DNA of 41,009 nucleotides from Desulfuromonas sp. (GCA_028685815.1 JAQUDG010000009.1:1-41009); one strand, 5' to 3'. Shown: positions 12,978 through 29,278, counted from the first letter of the stretch. The notes: generated by a model from the letters alone, not told the origin. Made by a program: numbers and translations.

Positions 12978-13418
12978 ATGCGTTTTTCCAAGCGGTCGTT
13001 GTATGCAGTGCGGGCGTTGGTTCGTTTAGCAACTCAACACGAAGATCGGCCTGTATCTATCCGCGAAATCTCTGAAATTGAAGACATCTCCTTGCCTTAT
13101 TTGGAGCAATTGTTCGCGTGCTTGCGACGCAGTGAGTTGGTGAAAAGTGTTCGCGGTCCCGGTGGCGGATATGTGCTTTCACGCGATGCGGCTGAGATAA
13201 GTCTGGAGCAGATAGTAGAAAGTGTAGATGAAACTATTGCCCCGGCTGAGTGCGTCGATAACGATTCCGTCTGTTTGCGTAAGTCCGAATGTTTTATGCA
13301 CCCAGTCTGGAGCGAGCTAGGAGACAAAATCCGAGATTTTTTGGCGAATATTTCGGTAGAAGACTTGATGGCCAGAGCTAAAAAACATACCGATGCAACT
13401 ACGTCGGATGGCCAATAA
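12978..13418 (+). CDS. iscR: Rrf2-family Fe-S cluster-responsive regulator (IscR-like)
   Basis: A 146-residue winged-helix repressor of the Rrf2 family. The N-terminal helix-turn-helix (RFSKRSLYAVRALVRLA, DISLPYLEQLF) and wing (RGPGGGYVLSR) are clear. Three cysteines C92, C99 and C105 followed by H108 mimic the Cys3-His ligand set of E. coli IscR (C92, C98, C104, H107), with one extra residue between the first two. It probably binds a [2Fe-2S] cluster and controls the downstream iscS-mnmA-mtaB genes. AAGGGG lies 6 bases upstream of the ATG. Confidence 0.9.
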   Translation: MRFSKRSLYAVRALVRLATQHEDRPVSIREISEIEDISLPYLEQLFACLRRSELVKSVRGPGGGYVLSRDAAEISLEQIVESVDETIAPAECVDNDSVCLRKSECFMHPVWSELGDKIRDFLANISVEDLMARAKKHTDATTSDGQ

Positions 13419-13542
13419 AGTATCCGTATTGCTACGTACGCTGCGTATGCTCGGTCCATGCAACCGACAGCTGTATGTCCACCCGAAATTTTACTCGAGT
13501 AATTGAAGCGTAATCCGGCCAAGGGGCCGTGTGGAGGTTGTT

Positions 13543-14757
13543 TTGCGTCAGGTGTATCTGGATAATAATGCCACCACTCCGTTACACCCGGAGGTTGTTG
13601 AAGCTATGCTGCCGTGTTTGCTTACTGAGTTTGGTAATCCGTCTAGTATTCACTGGGCCGGACGCCAAACCAGTACAATGTTGCAACAAGCGCGCGCTCA
13701 GGTTGCAGATCTATTAAATGCTCAACCCCACGAAATTATCTTTACCAGCTGCGGCTCGGAAGGGGATAATTTCGCCCTCTTAGGCAGCGTTGAGGCTTTG
13801 CAGGGTAAGGGCAACCATATTATTACTTCGGCGGTAGAACATTCGGCTATCTTGGATACATGCCGTTACTTTGAGGAACACGGTGGACGCGTGACCTATC
13901 TCCCCGTCGACAGCCATGGTGCCATCGACCCAGCAGCTGTCGAAGCGGCAATCGATTCAGATACGATCCTTATCTCGCTTATGTGGGCCAATAATGAGAC
14001 GGGCACCGTATTCCCGATCGAAAAGATTGCAGCCATAGCCCAACAACATCAGATCCGATTTCATACTGATGCGGTCCAGGCGTTGGGGCGACTGCCCATA
14101 GATGTTAAGCGTTGTCAGATTGATCTGCTGACTGTATCAGCGCATAAGATCGGCGGACCTAAGGGGGTGGGGGCTGTCTATGTGCGTGATGGAGTTGAAA
14201 TTGCCCCTTACATCCATGGAGGGCATCAGGAGCGACGTTTACGTGCCGGTACGCATAACGTTCCCGGTATTGTTGGCTTTGGGCGTGCGTGCGTGTGGGC
14301 ACAGGAGCATCTGGATTCCGAGACAAAGCGTCTCACTGCTCTGCGCGATCGCCTCGAAGAGGGAATTTGTTCGCGCCTTAAGTATGTAAGTCGCAACGGC
14401 GATCGCCATAATTGTCTGCCCAACACGCTGAATCTCACCTTTCCGTACGTAGAGGGAGAGGGGTTGCTACTAGCGTTGGATATGCTCGGCATTGCTGTTT
14501 CTTCTGGTTCTGCCTGCACGTCTGGGGTTGAGGGAGCTTCCCACGTATTGCGCGCTATGCATGCTGATGATATGACCCTTAATTCCAGTGTGCGTTTAAG
14601 TCTGGGCTTTCATAATACCGCAGAAGATGTTGATTACGTAATCCAGCACCTTCCGGCAGCAGTGGAGCGATTACTCGCGATGAGTCCTGCTTTTGATGAC
14701 CTTAATCAGTACGATTGTGAGGTCATCTCATGCGAAATAGATCCACACTCCCATTGA
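13543..14757 (+). CDS. iscS: cysteine desulfurase (IscS/NifS family)
   Basis: A PLP enzyme that takes sulfur from cysteine as a protein persulfide for Fe-S clusters and thiolated tRNA. The N-terminus YLDNNATTPLHP, PLP lysine in SAHKIGGPKG (K202) and the catalytic cysteine loop SSGSACTSG (C325) place it in the group I NifS/IscS class. TTG at 13543 gives a family-like N-terminus (MRQVYLDNN) with GGAGG 5 bases upstream; GTG at 13531 is the alternative, adding four residues. No iscU follows; mnmA starts 12 bases after the stop, so tRNA thiolation is a likely main sulfur sink. Confidence 0.94.
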   Translation: MRQVYLDNNATTPLHPEVVEAMLPCLLTEFGNPSSIHWAGRQTSTMLQQARAQVADLLNAQPHEIIFTSCGSEGDNFALLGSVEALQGKGNHIITSAVEHSAILDTCRYFEEHGGRVTYLPVDSHGAIDPAAVEAAIDSDTILISLMWANNETGTVFPIEKIAAIAQQHQIRFHTDAVQALGRLPIDVKRCQIDLLTVSAHKIGGPKGVGAVYVRDGVEIAPYIHGGHQERRLRAGTHNVPGIVGFGRACVWAQEHLDSETKRLTALRDRLEEGICSRLKYVSRNGDRHNCLPNTLNLTFPYVEGEGLLLALDMLGIAVSSGSACTSGVEGASHVLRAMHADDMTLNSSVRLSLGFHNTAEDVDYVIQHLPAAVERLLAMSPAFDDLNQYDCEVISCEIDPHSH

Positions 14758-19317: not shown

Positions 19318-19563
19318 ATATACATTTATGTAAAATATAGTGGTTTTATAATGTCGGCTTAACTAGTATGTTGTTTGGTGTTTAAGGAAATGATTAACCT
19401 CTTGTCTAAGAGTGTAAATGTAATAGCGCTTAAACATGTGAGCGAAGTCGAGTAGATGTGTCAGTAAAAACGCGGGCAGGACTGTGTATAGGTTTCCTGG
19501 ATTGAAATTTGTATTTGGCTATCGTGTCCAGGCTTTTTGATTTGTATGACGGGAGTTATTTGT

Positions 19564-19932
19564 ATGGCAAAAATATTAGTGGCAGATGACAGTAAAACAG
19601 AACTGGCCTTTTTGCTAGAAATCCTGAAAAACACAGGTCATACGGTGGTGGCAGTTGTCGATGGGCTACAGGCAGAAGAAAAGGCCAGATCAGAGCCATT
19701 CGACCTAATTATCCTTGACGTTATTATGCCAAATAAAAACGGGTTTCAGGTTTGTCGTTCATTAAAGCGCGATCCTGAACTCAAAAATATCCCTATTGTG
19801 CTGACTACCTCGAAATCAGGCGAAAGTGATAAGTTTTGGGGTAAAAAGCAGGGAGCCGATGAATACATTGTTAAACCGTATGAGCCGGTAGATATTCTGT
19901 TGGCGGTTAAAAAATATGTTGGAGGCGCGTAG
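19564..19932 (+). CDS. PilH-like single-domain response regulator
   Basis: A 122-residue stand-alone receiver domain. The acidic pocket D8/D9, the phospho-acceptor D52 (ILDVIMP) and the lysine in IVKPYEP are present. The segment DKFWGKKQGADEYIVKP closely resembles PilH of the Pseudomonas Pil-Chp system (DKVWGKRQGARDYLTKP as I remember it). It probably accepts phosphate from the CheA encoded downstream and acts on type IV pilus motors or as a phosphate sink. GGGAG is 8 bases before the ATG. Its stop overlaps the next start (TAGTG). The 246-base gap upstream holds a possible TATAAT (19347-19352) and a weak CCTGGA/TCCAGG hairpin (19496-19532) followed by five T, but no convincing promoter. Confidence 0.9.
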   Translation: MAKILVADDSKTELAFLLEILKNTGHTVVAVVDGLQAEEKARSEPFDLIILDVIMPNKNGFQVCRSLKRDPELKNIPIVLTTSKSGESDKFWGKKQGADEYIVKPYEPVDILLAVKKYVGGA

Positions 19933-20477
19933 TGGACCTTGCGACAGCGTTTCAGAAATATGCACAGAACGAAAACGGCCAGCTTGTTCTGCAATTTTCT
20001 GGAACAGAGCACCTGTGCAAGATAAGCATTGAAGATGGTGAAGCGGTAGACATCAGGCTTGGTCGTTTCGACGTTGATGAGACCATAGAGTTCGTCTCCT
20101 CCCATGAAATAATTGAAGTAAGTTTTATTAAGGGCTTTGTTCCGAAGAAAAAACTGCCTGTCCCCATAACAGACCGACTGTTAGGCGAGGGTGCTTATAA
20201 GTCTCCCGAAAAAAAACCAAGTGTAGCTAAGTCGGATATAGCTAAGCCATCATCCGGCGGTGAACAAGTGGCTGCAGCAAAGATAAATAAAGTTATCAGC
20301 GGGTATGTGGACATCGTCGGTCCGCTAGGGGTTGTCATGCTAGAGAACTTACTTAAGAAAATCGATTACACCCGAAATTCACCCATGCCTGCTGATGATT
20401 ACACCTTCATGGTAGAGAAGTTAGCAGCGGATGTGCCCGAAAACATGCGCGTAGAATTTATGCAAACGATTAAATGA
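19932..20477 (+). CDS. uncharacterised protein of the chemosensory cluster, DUF4388-like N-terminus
   Basis: Not recognised with confidence. 181 residues, soluble, no signal peptide. Residues 1-85 (FSGTEHLCKISIEDGEAVDIRLG...) have the look of a half PATAN/DUF4388 module (ligand or protein binding beta-rich segment). A charged, low-complexity linker spans about 90-110. The C-terminal 70 residues (VDIVGPLGVVMLENLL ... ADDYTFMVEKLAADVP) form a separate helical domain of a type I recall at the C-terminus of some signalling proteins. The GTG start overlaps the stop of the PilH-like gene, so the two are translationally coupled and probably act together. Function unknown. Confidence 0.75.
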   Translation: MDLATAFQKYAQNENGQLVLQFSGTEHLCKISIEDGEAVDIRLGRFDVDETIEFVSSHEIIEVSFIKGFVPKKKLPVPITDRLLGEGAYKSPEKKPSVAKSDIAKPSSGGEQVAAAKINKVISGYVDIVGPLGVVMLENLLKKIDYTRNSPMPADDYTFMVEKLAADVPENMRVEFMQTIK

Positions 20478-20525: not shown

Positions 20526-21407
20526 ATGTTAAAAAAACTATCGATCAGAAAACGAATAGTTGTTGTGCTGGCGGTTATCTATGTTGCTTCAATAGCTGTT
20601 GCAGTTGCAGGCGGTGGCTATGTCTTGCTCAAAGATATGGAAAGGGAGGCGCAGGAGAAAACGGATCTATTTGCCGCCGTCATGTCCAGTTCTGCCAAAT
20701 ATTTGCATAACGTCATTCGCCCCAAGGCTGAAAAGCTGGTGCCAGCAGATGCTTATTTTCCGGAAAGTGGCGTAGGTGTTCTGATGCTGACAGAAACAGC
20801 TCGCTATGTTCAGGAGATATACCCTGAGTATATTTTCCGCTACGCGTCACCTAACCCTCTGAACCAAGAAAGCCTGTCAAATCAGTTCGAAGATGGGATC
20901 ATTGACCAAATGGAAGCGGGTGAGGTTGGCGAATGGAAGGGATTCACTGAGCGTGACGGTAAGAGCTATTACGCAGTGGCCAAACCATTGGTAGCTGGGT
21001 CTGACTGCATAAGCTGCCACGATGTCCCAGAGGTCGCGCATCCAGAACAAGTGGAACAGTATGGCACCAGATCAGGGTACGGTTATATGGAAGGTGACGT
21101 GGTGGGAGCACGCTTTATTTACGTGCCGATTGAGATGGTCAAGATTCAAGCGTACCAGCGCATTTTATACTTTTCCATAGGGTTCAGTATTTTCTTTCTG
21201 CTTGTGCTGTTTGCAGTGGACAGATTTATCGTTACCAGTATCGTCAGGCCAATTGAACACATTGTCTCCGTAGCAGAAAAAATAAGCCGAGGCAATCTTG
21301 ACGCCGAGTTTGATATAAAATCCCGAGACGAAATCCGCTCTTTAGCGGATGCATTTGAACGTATGAAGGTATCAATGGCAAAAGCAATGGATATATTGCG
21401 TCAATAA
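20526..21407 (+). CDS. membrane haem-c sensor: Tll0287-like (DUF3365) periplasmic domain plus HAMP, no output domain
   Basis: 293 residues. Transmembrane helix 1 is about residues 10-35 and helix 2 about 211-236. The periplasmic part carries a haem-c attachment motif CISCH at 161-165, with the DUF3365/Tll0287 hallmarks (LTETARYVQ near 88, FRYASPNPLNQ near 104, KPLV preceding the haem motif). A HAMP domain (about 236-289) is the whole cytoplasmic part; no kinase, cyclase or methyl-accepting domain follows. Haem redox state or a bound gas probably alters the HAMP, but a partner must carry the signal; the receptor or CheA encoded just downstream are candidates. Exact haem ligands cannot be read from the sequence. 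Confidence 0.9.
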   Translation: MLKKLSIRKRIVVVLAVIYVASIAVAVAGGGYVLLKDMEREAQEKTDLFAAVMSSSAKYLHNVIRPKAEKLVPADAYFPESGVGVLMLTETARYVQEIYPEYIFRYASPNPLNQESLSNQFEDGIIDQMEAGEVGEWKGFTERDGKSYYAVAKPLVAGSDCISCHDVPEVAHPEQVEQYGTRSGYGYMEGDVVGARFIYVPIEMVKIQAYQRILYFSIGFSIFFLLVLFAVDRFIVTSIVRPIEHIVSVAEKISRGNLDAEFDIKSRDEIRSLADAFERMKVSMAKAMDILRQ

Positions 21408-21442
21408 ATTTGTTGTTCAATAGCTTTAATGGAGTCGACGAT

Positions 21443-22768
21443 ATGGTTGGAGGTAAAAATACAGTCCTTATAGTTGATGATTCGCCTACGGTAAGACGTC
21501 TGGTCGAATTGGTCTTAAGCCAAAATGGCTTTGACGTTATATCAGCCGAGGACGGTGAATCTGGGCTCGAAATGGCCCGACAGCACCACCCGAGGATAAT
21601 CTTGGTTGATTTCGTCATGCCGCGCATGAACGGACATATGTTCTGCAAGGAATTGCGTGAAGATGAGCACCTGCGTGATGTACCAGTTATCTTGGTTTCG
21701 TCAAAAAGTGATGTTGTCGGACAGGCTTTTGAAGAGAGTTTCGGTATTGTGCATTACTTTACCAAACCATTCGAACCTGATGTTCTTGTTGCAAAAATTA
21801 ACGAGGTACTGCAAAAGGTCGACGAGACTGAGCGCGAAACAGGAGCGTTAGCCTCGAAAGCGGACGGCAATTTTTCTGTCAGCGAAACGACTGCAACCGG
21901 CGACACCCAGTCGGAAAAAGTGAATAGTGGGATCTCTATCGATTTAATTAACGATAAAATCGATAAAGTTGTGCGCGCCTACTTTCAGAAAGATTTTCCG
22001 GTTCTTATGAAGAACGTGTTGGCTGACACGCTTAAAGAAGCAGGCCTAGTCAAACATCAGACGCTTGTATTGTCTGGAGATTTAAGTGAGATGTCGCTGG
22101 CCGAAATACTTAATTTTTGTGCTAACACTCTGCAAAATGGGCGTTTGACTGTTTTTTCTGATGATACCTTTGCAGAGATTTTCCTAGATTGTGGGTGCTT
22201 AGTTTTTGCGACTGCAAGCCAGAAGGGAACACACACCTTTCTGATTGATATGATGCGTGATGATAATCGGTTCACCTGCGACAATAAAGTGCTGCAGGAG
22301 GTGATTCTTGAATCAAGGGTAAGCGGCGTGCCCATAGGACGTGCCTTGGTCGCGCGAAATATCATCAGCGAAGAAGATTTGATGTACTATTTGCGCCAAC
22401 ATGCCCAGGACGCGGTGACCAAGGCAATGGTAGTAGGAAAAGGCAGTTTCTTCCTAGAAAAAGATGAAATCCCCCATAACCTAACCGATATTTCATTCAG
22501 GATGCCCATGCCCGAGGTATTGCTTGTCGGGGCGCGACCCCTTCCTCCCGCACCTATGTTCTTCGAAGAAGGCTTGCGGGTGCAGCGTCTCCCGGCATGC
22601 GCTGACCTTATGCAGCGCGAATTATTAACATATGATGAAGCCGACTTGGTTGCCAAAATGGATGGCAGGACCATGGCCGAATTGCTTGCGGTAAGCGAAT
22701 TTAGTGCGGATGTGGTAAGAGGTATTGCTTCCACGCTATACATGGCTGGAGCTGTGGCGATCAGTTAG
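21443..22768 (+). CDS. response regulator with PATAN (DUF4388) output domain
   Basis: 441 residues. The N-terminal receiver (about 6-125) has DD at 12-13, phospho-acceptor D56 (ILVDFVMP) and YFTKPFEP. A linker of about 80 residues follows, then a PATAN/DUF4388 domain (from about 208, LSGDLSEMSLAEILNFC, RLTVFSD) and a C-terminal region resembling the second half of the same family. Cyanobacterial PatA/PixG proteins, which work in pilus phototaxis pathways, join the same two modules in the opposite order. The ATG at 21443 has GGAG 8 bases upstream; an upstream TTG at 21410 lacks one. It likely relays the CheA signal to a pilus or cyclic-dinucleotide target. Confidence 0.88.
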   Translation: MVGGKNTVLIVDDSPTVRRLVELVLSQNGFDVISAEDGESGLEMARQHHPRIILVDFVMPRMNGHMFCKELREDEHLRDVPVILVSSKSDVVGQAFEESFGIVHYFTKPFEPDVLVAKINEVLQKVDETERETGALASKADGNFSVSETTATGDTQSEKVNSGISIDLINDKIDKVVRAYFQKDFPVLMKNVLADTLKEAGLVKHQTLVLSGDLSEMSLAEILNFCANTLQNGRLTVFSDDTFAEIFLDCGCLVFATASQKGTHTFLIDMMRDDNRFTCDNKVLQEVILESRVSGVPIGRALVARNIISEEDLMYYLRQHAQDAVTKAMVVGKGSFFLEKDEIPHNLTDISFRMPMPEVLLVGARPLPPAPMFFEEGLRVQRLPACADLMQRELLTYDEADLVAKMDGRTMAELLAVSEFSADVVRGIASTLYMAGAVAIS

Positions 22769-22810
22769 GTTTTACTCGGATATGTACGGTGAACACGTAT
22801 AGATGCCCTA

Positions 22811-22853
22811 CGCGGTCGGGTGGGAGTAGCTTTGAGCTAACTAGCCGACCGCG
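22811..22853 (+). other. intercistronic hairpin inside the chemosensory cluster
   Basis: Arms CGCGGTCGG (22811-22819) and CCGACCGCG (22845-22853) with a nested TAGCT/AGCTA stem (22827-22839). No U-run follows, so it is more likely an RNA processing or stabilising element than a terminator. A TATAAT at 22870-22875 lies between it and the next gene, with no good -35. Confidence 0.5.
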
Positions 22854-22894
22854 AGTAAGACTAGCCCAATATAATCGAATTTAAAGGGATCGGT

Positions 22895-23707
22895 ATGAGC
22901 GATATTCAGAAAACATTGCTCCCTGTTTTTATTGAAGAGACAGAATTGGCCCTGGAGCAAATTGCGACCTTTATTCAGACATATCGCGATGGAACCGAGA
23001 CGGATGAAATAGTTGAGCTTGCACGCCGAGCGGCGCATACCGTAAAGGGAACAGCAGCGCTTGTAAAACGTTTTCAGACCAGCAACTTAGCGCACTTGCT
23101 TGAGCAGCATTTGGATGAGGGACAGGAGTCCGGTGACGCAGATATTGAGAAAATATCTGCTTGGTACACAGAGCTGTGTAGTTATCTGGCGTTGGCCAAA
23201 GACGGCGCAGAGGAAGATACTTTTGAAGCCGCCGCCGATTCTGCCTCTGACCTTAACTCACTCCTTAACGAAGCTGATCTGGACATCATTAATGACTTTG
23301 CCCTTCCTTTTATGCTCAAGCTACATCAGGCAGAGGAAGAGCAACACGAGGTGCTGCGTCCATTATGTTGCCGGTTTTTTGTTGGGGGCAGGCAGTATTT
23401 TATAAGTATTAAGGACGTGCTAGAGATATATCAATACGAATCCGTCACTTATTTGCCGTTCGCGCCTACGTTTGTCGTCGGATTGCTCAATATTCGCGGG
23501 GTTGTGGTGCCAGTAGTTAATTTAGCGGTGGTTGACAGCGGCAGCAGCAGCTCTACAGACTTGAGTGCTTCATATGCGGTTGTGGCAACAAGCGTTAACG
23601 GGGACGTGGCTTTTATATCCGATACGATACCGCAGTTGAGTATGAAAACTGCCGGCCATCATATTGAAGTCGCGTCATTTATTCAGGATAACAAGGTGCA
23701 GGCATAA
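22895..23707 (+). CDS. HPt-CheW fusion protein
   Basis: 270 residues. The N-terminal part is a histidine phosphotransfer domain: the helix ARRAAHTVKGTAALV has the phospho-histidine H48 in the HxxKG context. An acidic linker (about 100-145) follows, then a CheW domain (about 150-265; CCRFFVGGRQYFISIKDV, YLPFAPTFVVGLLNIRG, VVPVVNL). CheW joins receptors to CheA; an HPt on the same protein would let the coupling protein itself take part in phosphotransfer. The CheA encoded next starts 2 bases after this stop. AAAGGGA is about 5 bases before the ATG. Confidence 0.9.
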   Translation: MSDIQKTLLPVFIEETELALEQIATFIQTYRDGTETDEIVELARRAAHTVKGTAALVKRFQTSNLAHLLEQHLDEGQESGDADIEKISAWYTELCSYLALAKDGAEEDTFEAAADSASDLNSLLNEADLDIINDFALPFMLKLHQAEEEQHEVLRPLCCRFFVGGRQYFISIKDVLEIYQYESVTYLPFAPTFVVGLLNIRGVVVPVVNLAVVDSGSSSSTDLSASYAVVATSVNGDVAFISDTIPQLSMKTAGHHIEVASFIQDNKVQA

Positions 23708-23708
23708 C

Positions 23709-25994
23709 ATGGATCATCTTGGTTCAGCGAAAGAATTCTTTTTTGATGAAGCTACAGAGCATCTTGCCTATTTAGAATCCGGTTTACTTCAGATAGAAAC
23801 TCAGATTCTAATTGATGAAAATGCGCGCCCTGGAGCTGAGCTCATAGATAGCCTTTTTCGTTCCGCGCATACACTCAAAGGTGCGTCTGCGCTGCTCAAG
23901 TTTAAAGAAATTAGTGATATTGCGCATGAGTTTGAGGAATTGCTCGAACAGATCAAGCTTGGCTCCAAAACTATAAGCACAAATACTATTGATGCCATGC
24001 TTGTTGGTATTGATGCCATGCGCGCGCTATTGCATGCAGTTGAAAAACCTGAATATAAGCAGATAGCTAGTGAAGTGGTACAAAATTTCAACAGTATTTT
24101 TACTCAAGCTCTAGACAGCACTAAAATATCGCGTGCGGAGACAACGCAACCCGAGGTCGGGATCACCAATTTTGAAACCGTCAGTTTCGATAGCAGTAAT
24201 ACCGTAAAGGTTGATATCGCCCAGATTGACAAAATGATGAACCTTCTAGGCGAGTTGACCGTCAATAAGAGCCATATCCTCGATCAGGTTAGTCATGCCG
24301 AAGGGATGAAGGAAGAGATAGATTTCGCGCGTGAACGTCTCCTGCGTGAGATACGCGTGTTTTCGGAACGCCATGAATATTCAATTGCATCCGATAGTAG
24401 TGCCGAAGAATCGAAGCGAAGTGAGCTGACGGTTGCAGATTTTGATGAACTAGAATTTGATCGCTACGACGAGCTTAACCTTTTCTCGCGTAAGTTGCAG
24501 GAGATCAGCAACGACATCAATGAGGGGTTGTCCGAAATACACACCTTCCTCAATAGTTTGAGTCTAGATGTTGATGAGATGGATCGTATGACTGCAGAGA
24601 TGAAAGAGAAGATCTCGGCTATCCGGACACTTCCTGTCGAACATCTATACCGTAGATTCAAACGCACCTTCCGCAATCTGTTTCGGGCGCAGGACAATAT
24701 ATCTGCGCAACTAGAACTTAAGGGAGGAGAAACGCTCATTGGCCGTACGGTCATTGAGGGGCTATTCGATCCAATGGTTCACTTGCTACGCAACGCCCTT
24801 GCTCACGGGATTGAATCCAAAAACGAACGACTCGCAGCAGGAAAACCTTCAGAAGGCACGGTAACAATTACAGCTGTCAGGCGAGGGAATTCCGCGGTTA
24901 TAACCGTGTCCGATGATGGGCGTGGCATCTCGCTTGAAAAAGTACGCGACAAAGCAGTGTCCTTGGGATGGCTTGAGCCAGATTTTGATATTGAGCAGCG
25001 AGCACTGATAGATATGATCTTCAGGCCAGGGTTTAGTACTCAGGTGGATGCCGATGAACTCTCCGGCCGCGGGGTGGGGATGGATGTCGTCCTTGACAGA
25101 ATTTCTGCTCTAAATGGCACTATAGACGTAGTGACCGAGGAGGGGAAGGGAACAAGTTTTATACTCCAAATTCCCCTGTCGCTTATTATCATAAACGTGG
25201 TCCAATTTCGCGTCGGACATCACTTGTATGTAATTCCCACAACACTGGTTGAAGAGATTCAAGGGATGCGTGACCTTGACGTAGTTGGTGAACATGTGGT
25301 TAGACAAGGAGAGCGCTACCGCATTTTAAATCTAAATACATGTTTTTCCATTCCAGAGGCTGATGCTACACGCAGGTGTGTTCTATTCGTTAAAACAATG
25401 GGGGCTAGGATTGGTCTCTCCGTTGAAGAAGTCCTGACACAGGAAGACACGGTTATTCGTGCGTTTGGGTCCTTACTTGACTCCATGCGGTGCTTTTCAG
25501 GAACTAGCGTGTCAGGTGGCGGTGATATACGCTTAGTTATCAATCCTGCGCGCTTGGTAGATGTTGTTGGTGACGCCCTCCATCAGAATTTGCATGCCCC
25601 AGCAGCCCCAATTGCCGACACAAAACGAAGTTTAAGGGTTCTTATCGTTGACGACTCACTTAGTGTACGCAAGTACGCAAGCCTTATTCTCGAAGGGAAC
25701 GGAATTGAGGTTCTCACTGCAGTCAATGGACAGGAAGCACTAAATCTGCTTGAAACAGAGAAAGTGGACTTTGTTTTTACTGACCTGGAAATGCCAGTGA
25801 TGCACGGGTATGAACTGCTGGCTGAGTTGAAGCGACGTGAATCACTCGCTGCTGTTCCGGTAGTGGTAATTACATCTAGAGCAGGTTCGCAGCACAAAGA
25901 AAAAGCTTTAAATATGGGGGCTTGCGGCTATTTGGTCAAACCATTTGATGAAGATTCGCTTCTCGGGAAATTGCGCGAGCTTACTTTGTACTAA
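23709..25994 (+). CDS. hybrid chemotaxis histidine kinase CheA with C-terminal receiver
   Basis: 761 residues. Domains in order: HPt with H54 (FRSAHTLKGASALL), linker, dimerisation helices (about 170-330, VDIAQIDKMMNLLGEL), HATPase with N-box HLLRNALAHGIE, G1 VSDDGRGI and G2 GRGVGMDVV, a CheW-like coupling domain, and a receiver (about 640-760; VLIVDDSLSVRK, FTDLEMPVMHG, YLVKPFD). No P2 docking domain like that of enteric CheA is apparent. ATG 23709 directly follows the HPt-CheW stop and gives the expected N-terminus; an upstream in-frame start at 23664 lies inside that gene and is rejected. Such CheA-REC hybrids are typical of Pil-Chp, Frz and Pix pathways. Confidence 0.94.
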   Translation: MDHLGSAKEFFFDEATEHLAYLESGLLQIETQILIDENARPGAELIDSLFRSAHTLKGASALLKFKEISDIAHEFEELLEQIKLGSKTISTNTIDAMLVGIDAMRALLHAVEKPEYKQIASEVVQNFNSIFTQALDSTKISRAETTQPEVGITNFETVSFDSSNTVKVDIAQIDKMMNLLGELTVNKSHILDQVSHAEGMKEEIDFARERLLREIRVFSERHEYSIASDSSAEESKRSELTVADFDELEFDRYDELNLFSRKLQEISNDINEGLSEIHTFLNSLSLDVDEMDRMTAEMKEKISAIRTLPVEHLYRRFKRTFRNLFRAQDNISAQLELKGGETLIGRTVIEGLFDPMVHLLRNALAHGIESKNERLAAGKPSEGTVTITAVRRGNSAVITVSDDGRGISLEKVRDKAVSLGWLEPDFDIEQRALIDMIFRPGFSTQVDADELSGRGVGMDVVLDRISALNGTIDVVTEEGKGTSFILQIPLSLIIINVVQFRVGHHLYVIPTTLVEEIQGMRDLDVVGEHVVRQGERYRILNLNTCFSIPEADATRRCVLFVKTMGARIGLSVEEVLTQEDTVIRAFGSLLDSMRCFSGTSVSGGGDIRLVINPARLVDVVGDALHQNLHAPAAPIADTKRSLRVLIVDDSLSVRKYASLILEGNGIEVLTAVNGQEALNLLETEKVDFVFTDLEMPVMHGYELLAELKRRESLAAVPVVVITSRAGSQHKEKALNMGACGYLVKPFDEDSLLGKLRELTLY

Positions 25995-26106: not shown

Positions 26107-27999
26107 ATGTCTGATCATGCGCGTAAAATATCCAGTGTCAAAATGATAACGACACGCAACTTGCTCTCGATGGGGGCGTTGATTGTGCTGCTTCTTTTTC
26201 TCAATTTTGCCACCTATCACATGCTCTCTGACTCTGGGCATCAGAAGGCTGTTTCGGCAATGGAGCGGATGCAGGTTCTGGATGGCCTGTTAATTACTAT
26301 GTCAGATCTGCAAGTTTTAGAAGGGGAGTTGGTTTCTGCTGCTCAGCAAAAGAGTATTAATGAAGCTGAAAAGAAAGCAAGCCAAATCAAGGAAGTGTTG
26401 CTACAGGTGAATTCAGAACTTAACCAACTGCGCAGATTAGTTGCGATCGACAGCGGTGAAGTTGGCACCACTTGGGTTAATAGTGTTTTGCGCTATCTCA
26501 AGATTCAGGTCCCAGATTTCACCCGCTATCAATCGTTGAAAACCCTCGATATCCTGGACGATGTTTACACTAGTCTTGAAAAACGCCTGACTTTGGTCGT
26601 GGGTGATTTGGCGTTAAAGAAAAGTTTTGCCGCTACATCCATGCAGTATGCCGAATATAAGCAGGATGTGCGCGAGTTTAACCAGAATATCAACACCCTT
26701 CGCGGAAATTTTAAAAAAGAGGTCAGCCTGCAGCATTCTGCTTCAAGTCAGGATGTTGTTTTCCATACGGTGTTAGGCGTTATAATACTTCTATTTATCT
26801 TGGTTGTAGGATTAATCTCCTTGAGAAATAGGCGCCTGATTGGTTCGGTACAGTTGTTGCGTCAGACCGCTAATCGCATTTACGAAGGTGATTTCAGTGA
26901 AATTACCGCAATTCCCCGCGATGAGATTGGTGCGGCAACATTGCTGATCAGTGAGGCTGTTGGGCAATACAAAGAAGCGATTCTGGCGGATGCGGACCGT
27001 GAAACTACCCAGGAGAACTTGATTGGGTTCTTAGACGTGGTTAGTGAAGCTGCTGAAGGTGACCTTACCCTTAAGGCACCGGTTACTGCTGACGCTTTCG
27101 GCTCAGTTGCCGATGCGTATAACCTAATGGTTGAGAGTCTGGCGGATCTGCTCAAAGAAACAAAGCGAAGCGCTGATGACGTTGGTATCCAGTCAAAATA
27201 CCTCATGCAGATATTCCAGGATCTTGAAGCTGGGGCGCTGGCTCAGAGTACTCAGATTGAAAAGGTAACCAAGGCGGTGGAAAAATCTGAGGTTGCTGCT
27301 CAGGAAATTACTGAAAAGGCCGCATTGGCACAGGAAGTGTCAATGCAAGTAGACTTGGTTACCGCAAAAGGGCAAGATTTGGTCAACGACAACATCGACG
27401 GCATGCAGTTAATCCGCATTACGGTGCAAGTTATCAACAAAAAGATGAAAAACTTATCAGAGCGTATCCTCGAAATCGGCACAATATCGAAGTTGATCTC
27501 AGATATTGCCACGCGGACTACGATACTGGCGATGAATGCTTCAATCGAGGCCTCGCGTGCAGGAGAGCAAGGACGTGGGTTTCTGGTCATATCGGATGAA
27601 ATCAAACGCTTGGCGGACAAGTCAGCTGAAGCGACAAAGCAGATAAATGGAGTTATAAAGTCTATTCAGACAGATGCAGGCGAAGTTACCGCATCCCTTG
27701 AAGAAGAGACCAAGACTGTTGAGAGCCAGACACGATTGGCTCAGGATACCGGAGATGCGTTTAATTCTATTAAAGATGCAATTGAGAAGTCGAAAAGTGT
27801 GGTCACCGAAATTTCGGAACTTTCTAAAGCGCAGTTGGAAATAACTAAAAATGTCGATGAGGCTATGCTGCGAGTGGTTGAGATTTCACAAATTGCTCAA
27901 AGACACGTTGAAGATTCTTCCAAAATAACCACCGGTCTCAATAAGCAGTCTTCAGAACTGCTCTTATCCGTAGATACATTTCGTTTGCCCGAGGATTAG
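26107..27999 (+). CDS. methyl-accepting chemotaxis protein, PilJ-like
   Basis: 630 residues. Transmembrane helix 1 about 18-40 and helix 2 about 219-239 enclose an all-helical periplasmic domain of some 180 residues. A HAMP domain (about 240-290) and a second HAMP-like segment follow. The cytoplasmic signalling hairpin has the tip TTILAMNASIEASRAG and GRGFLVISDEIKRLAD, which resembles PilJ. No C-terminal CheR-docking pentapeptide is present. ATG 26107 follows GGGAG (26091-26095); an upstream TTG at 26014 would add an unlikely 31-residue leader. The last 60 bases of this gene recur, decayed, at 28758-28817. Confidence 0.92.
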   Translation: MSDHARKISSVKMITTRNLLSMGALIVLLLFLNFATYHMLSDSGHQKAVSAMERMQVLDGLLITMSDLQVLEGELVSAAQQKSINEAEKKASQIKEVLLQVNSELNQLRRLVAIDSGEVGTTWVNSVLRYLKIQVPDFTRYQSLKTLDILDDVYTSLEKRLTLVVGDLALKKSFAATSMQYAEYKQDVREFNQNINTLRGNFKKEVSLQHSASSQDVVFHTVLGVIILLFILVVGLISLRNRRLIGSVQLLRQTANRIYEGDFSEITAIPRDEIGAATLLISEAVGQYKEAILADADRETTQENLIGFLDVVSEAAEGDLTLKAPVTADAFGSVADAYNLMVESLADLLKETKRSADDVGIQSKYLMQIFQDLEAGALAQSTQIEKVTKAVEKSEVAAQEITEKAALAQEVSMQVDLVTAKGQDLVNDNIDGMQLIRITVQVINKKMKNLSERILEIGTISKLISDIATRTTILAMNASIEASRAGEQGRGFLVISDEIKRLADKSAEATKQINGVIKSIQTDAGEVTASLEEETKTVESQTRLAQDTGDAFNSIKDAIEKSKSVVTEISELSKAQLEITKNVDEAMLRVVEISQIAQRHVEDSSKITTGLNKQSSELLLSVDTFRLPED

Positions 28000-28358
28000 T
28001 AATTCTTATTCGCCTTGTAAGAGGGAGTGTGAATGTGCAAAAAGTGTGCGTAAGTTTAATGGGTCTGATCTTGTTGAGCTTTTTAAGTTCTGGTCCGTGT
28101 GCAGCTGCTGCCGATTGGCGCGAAGGTAAGGATTCCTTTCGTTCCGTGTGCTCTAGCTGTCATAAGACACGTGGCGAAGCTGGACGTATTTCCCTTAACA
28201 GTAAAACTCGTGCAGAGTGGTCTGCTTTTTTCTCTCAGTCCCCCGCTCCAGTGCACCAGCAGGCGTGGGGTAAGTTGGATAAAGATGGCATTAGCAGTTT
28301 GGAACTGTATTTTAGAAAACATGCTAAAGATGTAAAAGAATTACTGGGGTGTGGGTAG
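27940..28358 (+). repeat. tandem duplication, copy 1 (receptor 3' end plus cytochrome gene)
   Basis: Matches 28758-29167 without gaps through the receptor end, the 35-base spacer and the cytochrome gene start. Unit offset is 818 bases. In the spacer 27 of 35 bases agree, by hand count. Confidence 0.85.
28035..28358 (+). CDS. small periplasmic monohaem c-type cytochrome-like protein (copy 1)
   Basis: 107 residues with an N-terminal Sec signal peptide (hydrophobic 4-20, likely cleaved in the AAAA-D region) and one haem-c motif CSSCH at residues 39-43. The mature protein of about 80 residues contains no methionine, so a Met distal ligand as in classical cytochrome c is impossible; His in PAPVHQ is conserved in the paralogue and could serve. 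GTG 28035 is chosen because GAGGGAG (28021-28027) is 7 bases upstream and it aligns exactly with the ATG of copy 2; GTG 28029 is too close. Compared with copy 2 the stop TGA has become TGT, extending the protein by two residues. It follows the receptor gene by 35 bases. Confidence 0.87.
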   Translation: MQKVCVSLMGLILLSFLSSGPCAAAADWREGKDSFRSVCSSCHKTRGEAGRISLNSKTRAEWSAFFSQSPAPVHQQAWGKLDKDGISSLELYFRKHAKDVKELLGCG

Positions 28359-28852
28359 GCATCTTCTTGGGTCTTAAGGTCGGGGCGCAGATTCAGCCCG
28401 CCCCGACGAGCATTGGGGTGATACGCTCTATATAGCTTTGCACACCCAAGAATGTGGGTACTCTTATACTTGCGCCAAAAAGAATGGAATGACTGTTCAA
28501 TATATGAGCTAGGCAAGGATGGAACAGTAACTCAATTTTAGACTTGCCTCTGCGCCTCATCCTTAACGAGATGCGATAAAGCCCTTGCTGGGGAAAGTAT
28601 CTTAAGCAACGGGCAGCGCCCCATAGCTCTTGCTAGAATTCGCGCCTGTTTAATAGCTGCTACCTAGTGCTGGAAGCTCTTTTTAAACTGCCTACTTTCA
28701 GATTTATGAAGGTATCTGCTACCACCTTGGAGCTTTTTAGCAATAATCTATAACCCCAATAGACAGCTTTCTTAGCTGTTTTTTCTTAGAAATACACTGA
28801 GTTTGTTCGAAGATGAGTAATTATTGTTTGCTTTGCGACAGGGAGTTTGAAT
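28359..28852. other. 494-base intergenic region between the duplicated cytochrome genes
   Basis: Begins with a strong GC hairpin, GTCGGGGCG (28379-28387) and CGCCCCGAC (28399-28407), without U-run, probably ending the cluster transcript. No intact gene is found. The last 95 bases are homologous to the 3' end of the receptor gene and the spacer before copy 1. The middle part (about 28420-28750) shows no similarity I could establish and may be decayed receptor sequence. Confidence 0.7.
28758..28817 (+). pseudogene. remnant of the 3' end of a chemoreceptor gene
   Basis: Sixty bases align without gaps to the last 60 bases of the receptor gene (27940-27999), about 37 identical by hand count. In the receptor frame it reads NRQLS, a stop, then LFFLRNTLSLFEDE, against NKQSSELLLSVDTFRLPED in the intact gene. 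The distance from this remnant to the cytochrome start (35 bases) equals that in the intact copy. Confidence 0.75.
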
Positions 28853-29167
28853 ATGAAAAAATTGTTTTCAAGTTTAATATGCCTGATTTTATTGAGTGTT
28901 TTCAGTTCAGATCTGTGTTTAGCGGCTGATTGGCGCGCTGGGAAAGAAACCTACCGCACCGTATGCTCAAACTGTCATAAGACACGTGGTGAAGCCGAGC
29001 GGCTTTCCCTTAACAGCAGAACTCGGGACGAGTGGTCTGCTTTTTTTGCCCAGGCTCCTGTCCCTGTACATCAAAAGGTGTGGGATAAGTTGAATAAAGA
29101 AGATGTTGGTAGCTTGGAACAATATTTTAGAAAATATGCCAAAGATACAAAAGAATTGTTAGGGTGA
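28853..29167 (+). CDS. small periplasmic monohaem c-type cytochrome-like protein (copy 2)
   Basis: 104 residues, signal peptide (hydrophobic 4-19, cleavage after about residue 25 near LAA) and one haem-c motif CSNCH at 38-42. About 56 of 80 mature residues are identical to copy 1. Again there is no methionine in the mature part, and the His in PVPVHQ is kept. ATG 28853 has GGGAG (28841-28845) 7 bases upstream; an in-frame TTG at 28847 is too close. Substitutions are mostly conservative, so the copy appears to be under selection although the receptor sequence before it has decayed. Confidence 0.87.
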   Translation: MKKLFSSLICLILLSVFSSDLCLAADWRAGKETYRTVCSNCHKTRGEAERLSLNSRTRDEWSAFFAQAPVPVHQKVWDKLNKEDVGSLEQYFRKYAKDTKELLG

Positions 29168-29176
29168 GGCTAGAGC

Positions 29177-29197
29177 TATCTCATAGTTTATGAGATA
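29177..29197 (+). other. perfect 9-bp hairpin downstream of cytochrome copy 2
   Basis: TATCTCATA-gtt-TATGAGATA, nine base pairs with a three-base loop, ten bases after the stop. No U-run follows; it may protect the mRNA 3' end or be a protein-binding palindrome. A true terminator lies 30 bases further on. Confidence 0.55.
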
Positions 29198-29226
29198 AGG
29201 GTAAAGGAAATAGATGGACTCTGTGG

Positions 29227-29278
29227 TTGGGCCGAAGAAAAGCTTCGCATATGAAGCACATCTTCGGCCCAAACTTTT
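29227..29278 (+). terminator. convergent terminator between cytochrome copy 2 and the acyl-CoA synthetase
   Basis: Arms TTGGGCCGAAGA (29227-29238) and TCTTCGGCCCAA (29261-29272) with a nested GCTTC/GAAGC stem; T-run at 29274-29278 on the plus strand. The same hairpin lies 5 bases beyond the minus-strand synthetase stop and probably serves both. Confidence 0.85.

Follow-up and report, generated by a model that had tools for sequence, protein, structure and literature searches.

The window, a stretch of 41,009 nucleotides from Desulfuromonas sp. (GCA_028685815.1 JAQUDG010000009.1:1-41009; genome G000), carries a chemosensory operon in the order CheY-like regulator, 181-aa protein, sCache-haem/HAMP protein, DUF4388 regulator, Hpt-CheW, hybrid CheA, MCP, and cytochrome. 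MCP, CheW, and CheA occur in one operon, as in Che-like systems, and the MCP-type receptor is the seventh gene. The features considered here are as follows:

19537-20477, plus strand: CheY-like regulator (19537-19932) and 181-aa protein (19932-20477), start of the operon
20526-21407, plus strand: membrane protein with sCache-haem (Tll0287-like, CxxCH) and HAMP domains (PF11845 1.1e-25, HAMP 2.2e-13)
21410-25994, plus strand: response regulator with DUF4388, Hpt-CheW protein, and hybrid CheA
26107-27999, plus strand: receptor with HAMP and MCP signalling domain, from which the duplicated tail derives (Pfam MCPsignal 3.6e-33; syntenic in ten family genomes)
27934-28034, plus strand: source copy, comprising the receptor 3' end (last ~65 nt) and a 35-nt spacer with ribosome-binding site
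28035-28358, plus strand: cytochrome copy 1, Cys form, ending LLG-Cys-Gly-TAG (CxxCH and Cytochrome_CBB3 match)
28359-28751, no strand: genome-unique spacer in which no receptor homology was detected
28752-28817, plus strand: decayed receptor-tail remnant (37/60 identical)
28818-28852, plus strand: duplicate of the 35-nt spacer, including its ribosome-binding site (27/35 identical)
28853-29173, plus strand: cytochrome copy 2, proposed selenoprotein, ending LLG-Sec-Gly-TAG (family profile through the TGA; paralogy with copy 1)
29165-29167, plus strand: TGA in place of the conserved codon for the C-terminal Cys, proposed to encode selenocysteine
29177-29197, plus strand: proposed bacterial SECIS with 9-bp stem and GUU loop, 18 nt after the TGA
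29225-29274, no strand: GC-rich inverted repeat between convergent genes, a probable two-way terminator judged from sequence, separate from the SECIS hairpin

The operon and its cytochrome family

The same gene order occurred in all ten genomes of the bacterial family that were read. In families f12, f16, and f18 of the order the cytochrome is a divergent neighbour of the MCP; in genomes of family f8 it directly follows the sCache-haem protein, without CheA. The duplication described below had been taken in the first-pass annotation as support for a functional link between receptor and cytochrome. Judging from the gene arrangements, conserved synteny is better evidence for such a link than the duplication. 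The sCache-haem HAMP protein (20526-21407) has no output domain of its own and holds a conserved position near the beginning of the chemosensory operon. The 181-aa protein (19932-20477) has no Pfam match; across the family as well as in f8 it is conserved, with the CheY-like regulator on one side and the haem sensor on the other.

The cytochromes are c-type, with CxxCH in an exported protein whose signal peptide was judged from sequence. The start of copy 1 was set at the GTG at 28035 from the spacing to the ribosome-binding site and the alignment with copy 2. Both window copies scored 24-25 bits, just below the Pfam cut-off of 27 bits. They share CxxCH, a signal peptide, and a mature protein of ~80 residues with small single-haem c-type cytochromes (Pfam Cytochrome_CBB3 / Cytochrom_C), but differ from these by a conserved C-terminal Cys-Gly and by the lack of a conserved distal Met. 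No Met after the haem motif was conserved in the family alignments, and the cytochrome was not filed as class I. An AlphaFold model built from two sequences reached a mean pLDDT of 58, too poor for a structure search.

Matches to the cytochrome family were confined to this order in a class-wide search, and no NCBIfam 20.0 model matched it above cut-off. Most members end in Cys-Gly, and both residues are invariant in an alignment of 24 sequences, which were chosen among members with that end. A few end otherwise, for example with CWDPK or CY; the members from family f16 (L120, L121, L123) end in ...CWDPK instead of ...CG. The C-terminal Cys-Gly is a conserved, unexplained feature of the cytochrome family across one bacterial order.

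Tandem cytochrome pairs of the same family, ~90-100 bp apart, were also found in other families of the order (L066 7773-8474, L069 7226-7954, L070 7128-7855, and L072 6583-7303), and one member of the L066 pair is without the C-terminal Cys. In genomes G010 and G001 a decaying, divergent cytochrome-like gene, which has kept CxxCH and whose frames are broken, follows the intact cytochrome, past its terminator:

L022 13683-14534 and L024 (reverse complement) 13250-13769: decaying cytochrome-like gene (G010, G001)

Tandem duplication of the receptor tail and cytochrome

The receptor 3' end (27940-27999) aligned without gaps to 28758-28817 with 37/60 identical positions, and the spacer 28000-28034 to 28818-28852, also ungapped, with 27/35, so that the approximate identities given earlier were exact to the base. 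The offset between the duplicate blocks is constant at 818 and runs on into the cytochrome paralogy. When the receptor 60-mer was slid over every window position, the mean was 15.1 identities (sd 3.4) and the best other position reached 32, which places the receptor-tail remnant at a z of about 6.5. Over the whole 95 nt, 61 positions were identical, against a mean of 24.0, a sd of 4.2, and a best other score of 42 across all window positions. The alignment of the receptor end with the region upstream of copy 2 is thus significant, and it reaches receptor coding sequence beyond the ribosome-binding region.

The remnant carries the in-frame stop that had been claimed for it, a TAG at 28773-28775. 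The receptor stop codon corresponds to GAG in the remnant and the codon after it to TAA. Identity was kept at 77% in the spacer and 62% in the receptor tail, and the 38% of remnant sites that differ would be as expected from free decay since the duplication. Within the span 28359-28852, which had been proposed for alignment as a whole, similarity was recovered from about 28752 on but not for 28359-28751, leaving only ~65 bp of receptor tail recognisable. Pieces of these 393 bp aligned locally to the receptor of G000 or of G013 no better than shuffles did, and an upstream extension of the remnant by profile search and local alignment against shuffles gave nothing beyond about 28752. The gap 28359-28751 is unique in the genome, and a mobile-element or repeat origin was thereby ruled out. 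A search of the region against Rfam returned chance matches only, and a promoter/terminator scan was near chance.

In a tree of 13 cytochromes the window copies are sisters with a support of 98/96 and stand next to the single copy of G013. They are 71% identical in DNA, in line with the roughly 70 percent first estimated, and 63% identical in protein. With a dN of about 0.15-0.25, a dS of about 0.9-1.2, and a third-position difference of 41-44%, both copies are under purifying selection. A comparable arrangement was found in G009, from another genus:

L026 12977-13779: tandem cytochrome duplication with decayed receptor tail (G009)

This genome also has two cytochromes, separated by a 0.8-kb gap at whose end lie a decayed receptor tail of ~175 bp and the spacer (profile E 7e-19). 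Because the alignment is significant, the cytochromes are sisters, and G009 offers a parallel case, a tandem duplication of a segment that begins within the last codons of the receptor and takes in the cytochrome is established, much as the first-pass annotation had described it. Colinear similarity, a disabling change, and sister copies in the tree were all found, as for a duplication with a pseudogene remnant.

G009 was placed with G010 and G001 in a tree of four operon proteins, and its cytochrome copies lie within their own clade, apart from the window copies; the two duplications therefore look independent. It is very unlikely that one ancient duplication common to both lineages was followed by homogenisation of the copies through gene conversion. 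Such a history would account for two cytochromes with receptor remnants between them in both genera, but the tree groups the copies by lineage, relatives placed between G000 and G009 have single copies, and the remnants differ in extent. The least probable explanation, with hardly any chance of being right, is that the upstream similarity reflects a shared regulatory element maintained by selection, or arose by chance, instead of being a duplication relic. The better preservation of the spacer compared to the tail is what a ribosome-binding region would lead one to expect, but the ungapped similarity at constant offset runs into paralogous, sister genes and covers receptor coding sequence that now contains a stop.

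How much of the receptor was copied is a separate matter. According to the first-pass annotation, the cytochromes were retained after a second receptor had been lost, that is, a complete second receptor-cytochrome unit was once present and its receptor disappeared by decay and deletion. Retention agrees with the dN/dS of the copies, while the loss of a whole receptor is rather doubtful. The presence of a receptor-tail remnant speaks for it, as do the ~175 bp of decayed receptor that G009 keeps before its own second cytochrome. Against it, the other 393 bp of the gap are without receptor homology, and none of the 34 genomes of the order that have this type of receptor carries more than one, nor was an intact second receptor-cytochrome pair found among them. 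A breakpoint within the last codons of the receptor would leave just such a remnant of ~65 bp, and no complete second receptor need have been lost to account for it.

The TGA of copy 2 and its downstream hairpin

The first-pass annotation ended copy 2 at 29167. This position is the end of a TGA, and the frame continues with GGC-TAG to 29173. Copy 1 ends LLG-TGT-GGG-TAG and copy 2 LLG-TGA-GGC-TAG, so that the in-frame UGA falls on a residue that is Cys in 61 homologues, and profile searches passed through the end of copy 2 and reported one TGA. The TGA, previously taken as an ordinary stop, is most likely read as selenocysteine, which would make copy 2 a selenoprotein. Only one residue (Gly) follows before the stop, which leaves little sequence in which conservation past the codon could show. 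No closer relative with copy 2 was found; a scan of genome contigs gave one remote match only, and the assembly of the congener G011 is without the locus.

Selenocysteine machinery is encoded in G000, with SelB at 352 bits (cut-off 242), SelA at 600 bits in a gene adjoining that of SelB, and a tRNA-Sec with anticodon UCA at 69 bits. SelA was found in 14/14 family genomes. SelD with an in-frame TGA occurred in ten family genomes, in six more genomes from the order, and in the congener G011, where the gene is split over contig ends. No selD was found above cut-off in the G000 assembly, where contig C25 breaks off next to selB; relatives carry selD at a distance of about 3 kb from selA.

The published bacterial SECIS model has a loop of 3-9 nt, a stem of 4-16, a G as one of the loop's first two nucleotides, a spacing of 16-37, and an MFE <= -7.5 (PMC13188914 Fig. 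2). The hairpin of copy 2 fits this model with a stem of 9, a GUU loop, a spacing of 18, and -8.4 to -8.6 kcal/mol for the folded segment, the bare hairpin being just above the cut at -7.4. In most of the family's SelD genes, a hairpin lies 33 nt past the TGA and combines a stem of 8-9 bp with a loop of GUU, GUG, or GUA. A score based on energy only is unspecific, as it was passed by 2.6% of window TGAs and by 9-10% of gene ends in these loci, mostly terminators; loop and stem type were therefore tested instead. A correctly spaced GU triloop on a stem of at least 7 followed 0.26% of 19,687 TGAs, 3 of 665 gene ends (copy 2 included), and none of the 61 Cys homologues. The best of these homologues is copy 1, with six pairs (three G-U) around a GUC loop at a spacing of 18, a weak pairing that is no more than a hint of a possible SECIS in the ancestor. 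As a prediction, a fossil SECIS downstream of copy 1 was rejected, the segment folding into a different structure at -3.2 kcal/mol.

A second UGA form was found in G074, from another family of the order:

L124, contig C17, about 174555-174863, minus strand: UGA-form cytochrome (G074)

This cytochrome ends ...AADTDHPQT-TGA-D-P-E-P-TAA, with the TGA at the C-terminal Cys codon and a hairpin GTGCCAA-GTT-TTGGTAC 22 nt after it, and the SelD of G074 is itself a TGA-containing gene. In G075 (L136), of the same genus, the end reads ...AADTDQPQS-TGC-D-P-G-P-TAA, and there is no such hairpin. Past the codon the two are identical at 13/15 nt to the TAA and at 13/45 beyond, with DPxP-stop conserved. A recent nonsense change could also leave this pattern, but it would not explain the hairpin.

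A rival reading, quite unlikely, takes the TGA as an ordinary stop: a nonsense mutation would have cost copy 2 its last two residues (Cys-Gly), and the hairpin would be either a weak terminator or unrelated. A change from TGT to TGA is a single one that costs two residues only, a plain nonsense loss of these residues looks alike at the codon, and hairpins are common near gene ends, at the frequency given above for energy. On the other hand, the genome decodes selenocysteine, the hairpin is rich in AU, lacks a U-tract, and stands apart from the terminator-like repeat at 29225-29274, and the same residue turned UGA in a second lineage. Triloop hairpins of this type follow both UGA forms, yet none of the Cys homologues.

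Proposed history, role, and comparison with known selenoproteins

The account preferred here, which we consider very likely as a whole, consists of an operon with one cytochrome, a tandem duplication, decay of the receptor tail, retention of both copies, and a UGA in copy 2 that stands for selenocysteine. The ancestral chemosensory operon would have ended in one small periplasmic c-type cytochrome with C-terminal Cys-Gly. The receptor tail and the cytochrome were then copied in tandem, after which the useless receptor tail decayed and both cytochromes were kept under purifying selection. In copy 2 the UGA is most probably decoded by SelB and tRNA-Sec via the hairpin just downstream to give ...LLG-Sec-Gly; copy 1 keeps Cys.

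In its most likely role, the cytochrome would serve the haem sensor and the receptor as a periplasmic electron or ligand partner, and the C-terminal thiol or selenol would act beside the haem as a second redox group. The array would thereby have Cys and Sec versions with different redox reactivity. A 2026 preprint attributes nitric oxide sensor behaviour to those sCache-haem domains that are fused to signalling modules, and it reports that about half of the sCache-haem family is stand-alone or associated with cytochrome c-like proteins (PMC12889525). Given this report, the array may read NO or redox state. Like the sCache-haem (Tll0287-like) NO/redox sensors, the operon has its own copy of the domain fused to HAMP, but here the domain has as its neighbours CheA, an MCP, and a small cytochrome that is a protein of its own (compare PMC12889525).

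A wider proposal can be put forward only tentatively, and the odds lean against it: that small c-type cytochromes form a new selenoprotein family in which the C-terminal Cys changed to Sec at least twice independently, here with Cys and Sec paralogues in one haem-based array, selenium tuning periplasmic redox or nitric-oxide sensing. If copy 2 is indeed a selenoprotein, its misread gene end would be corrected, and two paralogues in one operon, differing at one redox-capable residue (Cys or Sec) beside a haem sensor and a chemoreceptor, would offer a natural test.

The 2026 inventory comprises 119 prokaryotic selenoprotein families/subfamilies (PMC13188914). Its c-type cytochromes are ExtKL (multihaem) and the octahaem tetrathionate-reductase family, to which a CxxCH-containing beta-barrel family is added, and no small single-haem cytochrome appears in this inventory (PMC13188914); the comparison covered open-access literature. 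The window cytochrome resembles inventory families with Cys homologues in having a UGA on a conserved Cys, a SECIS-like hairpin downstream, and Sec machinery in the genome (PMC13188914). With the C-terminal Sec proteins KCU-star/DUF466 and SaoC (Cys-Cys-COOH) it would share a Sec at the extreme C-terminus. Thioredoxin reductase is likewise a C-terminal Sec protein, with Gly-Cys-Sec-Gly. In contrast to these proteins, the Cys or Sec here is a lone one in a c-type cytochrome, with no neighbouring Cys for a vicinal pair. Should copy 2 prove to contain selenocysteine, a small c-type cytochrome would join the known selenoproteins, whose c-type cytochromes have so far been only multihaem.
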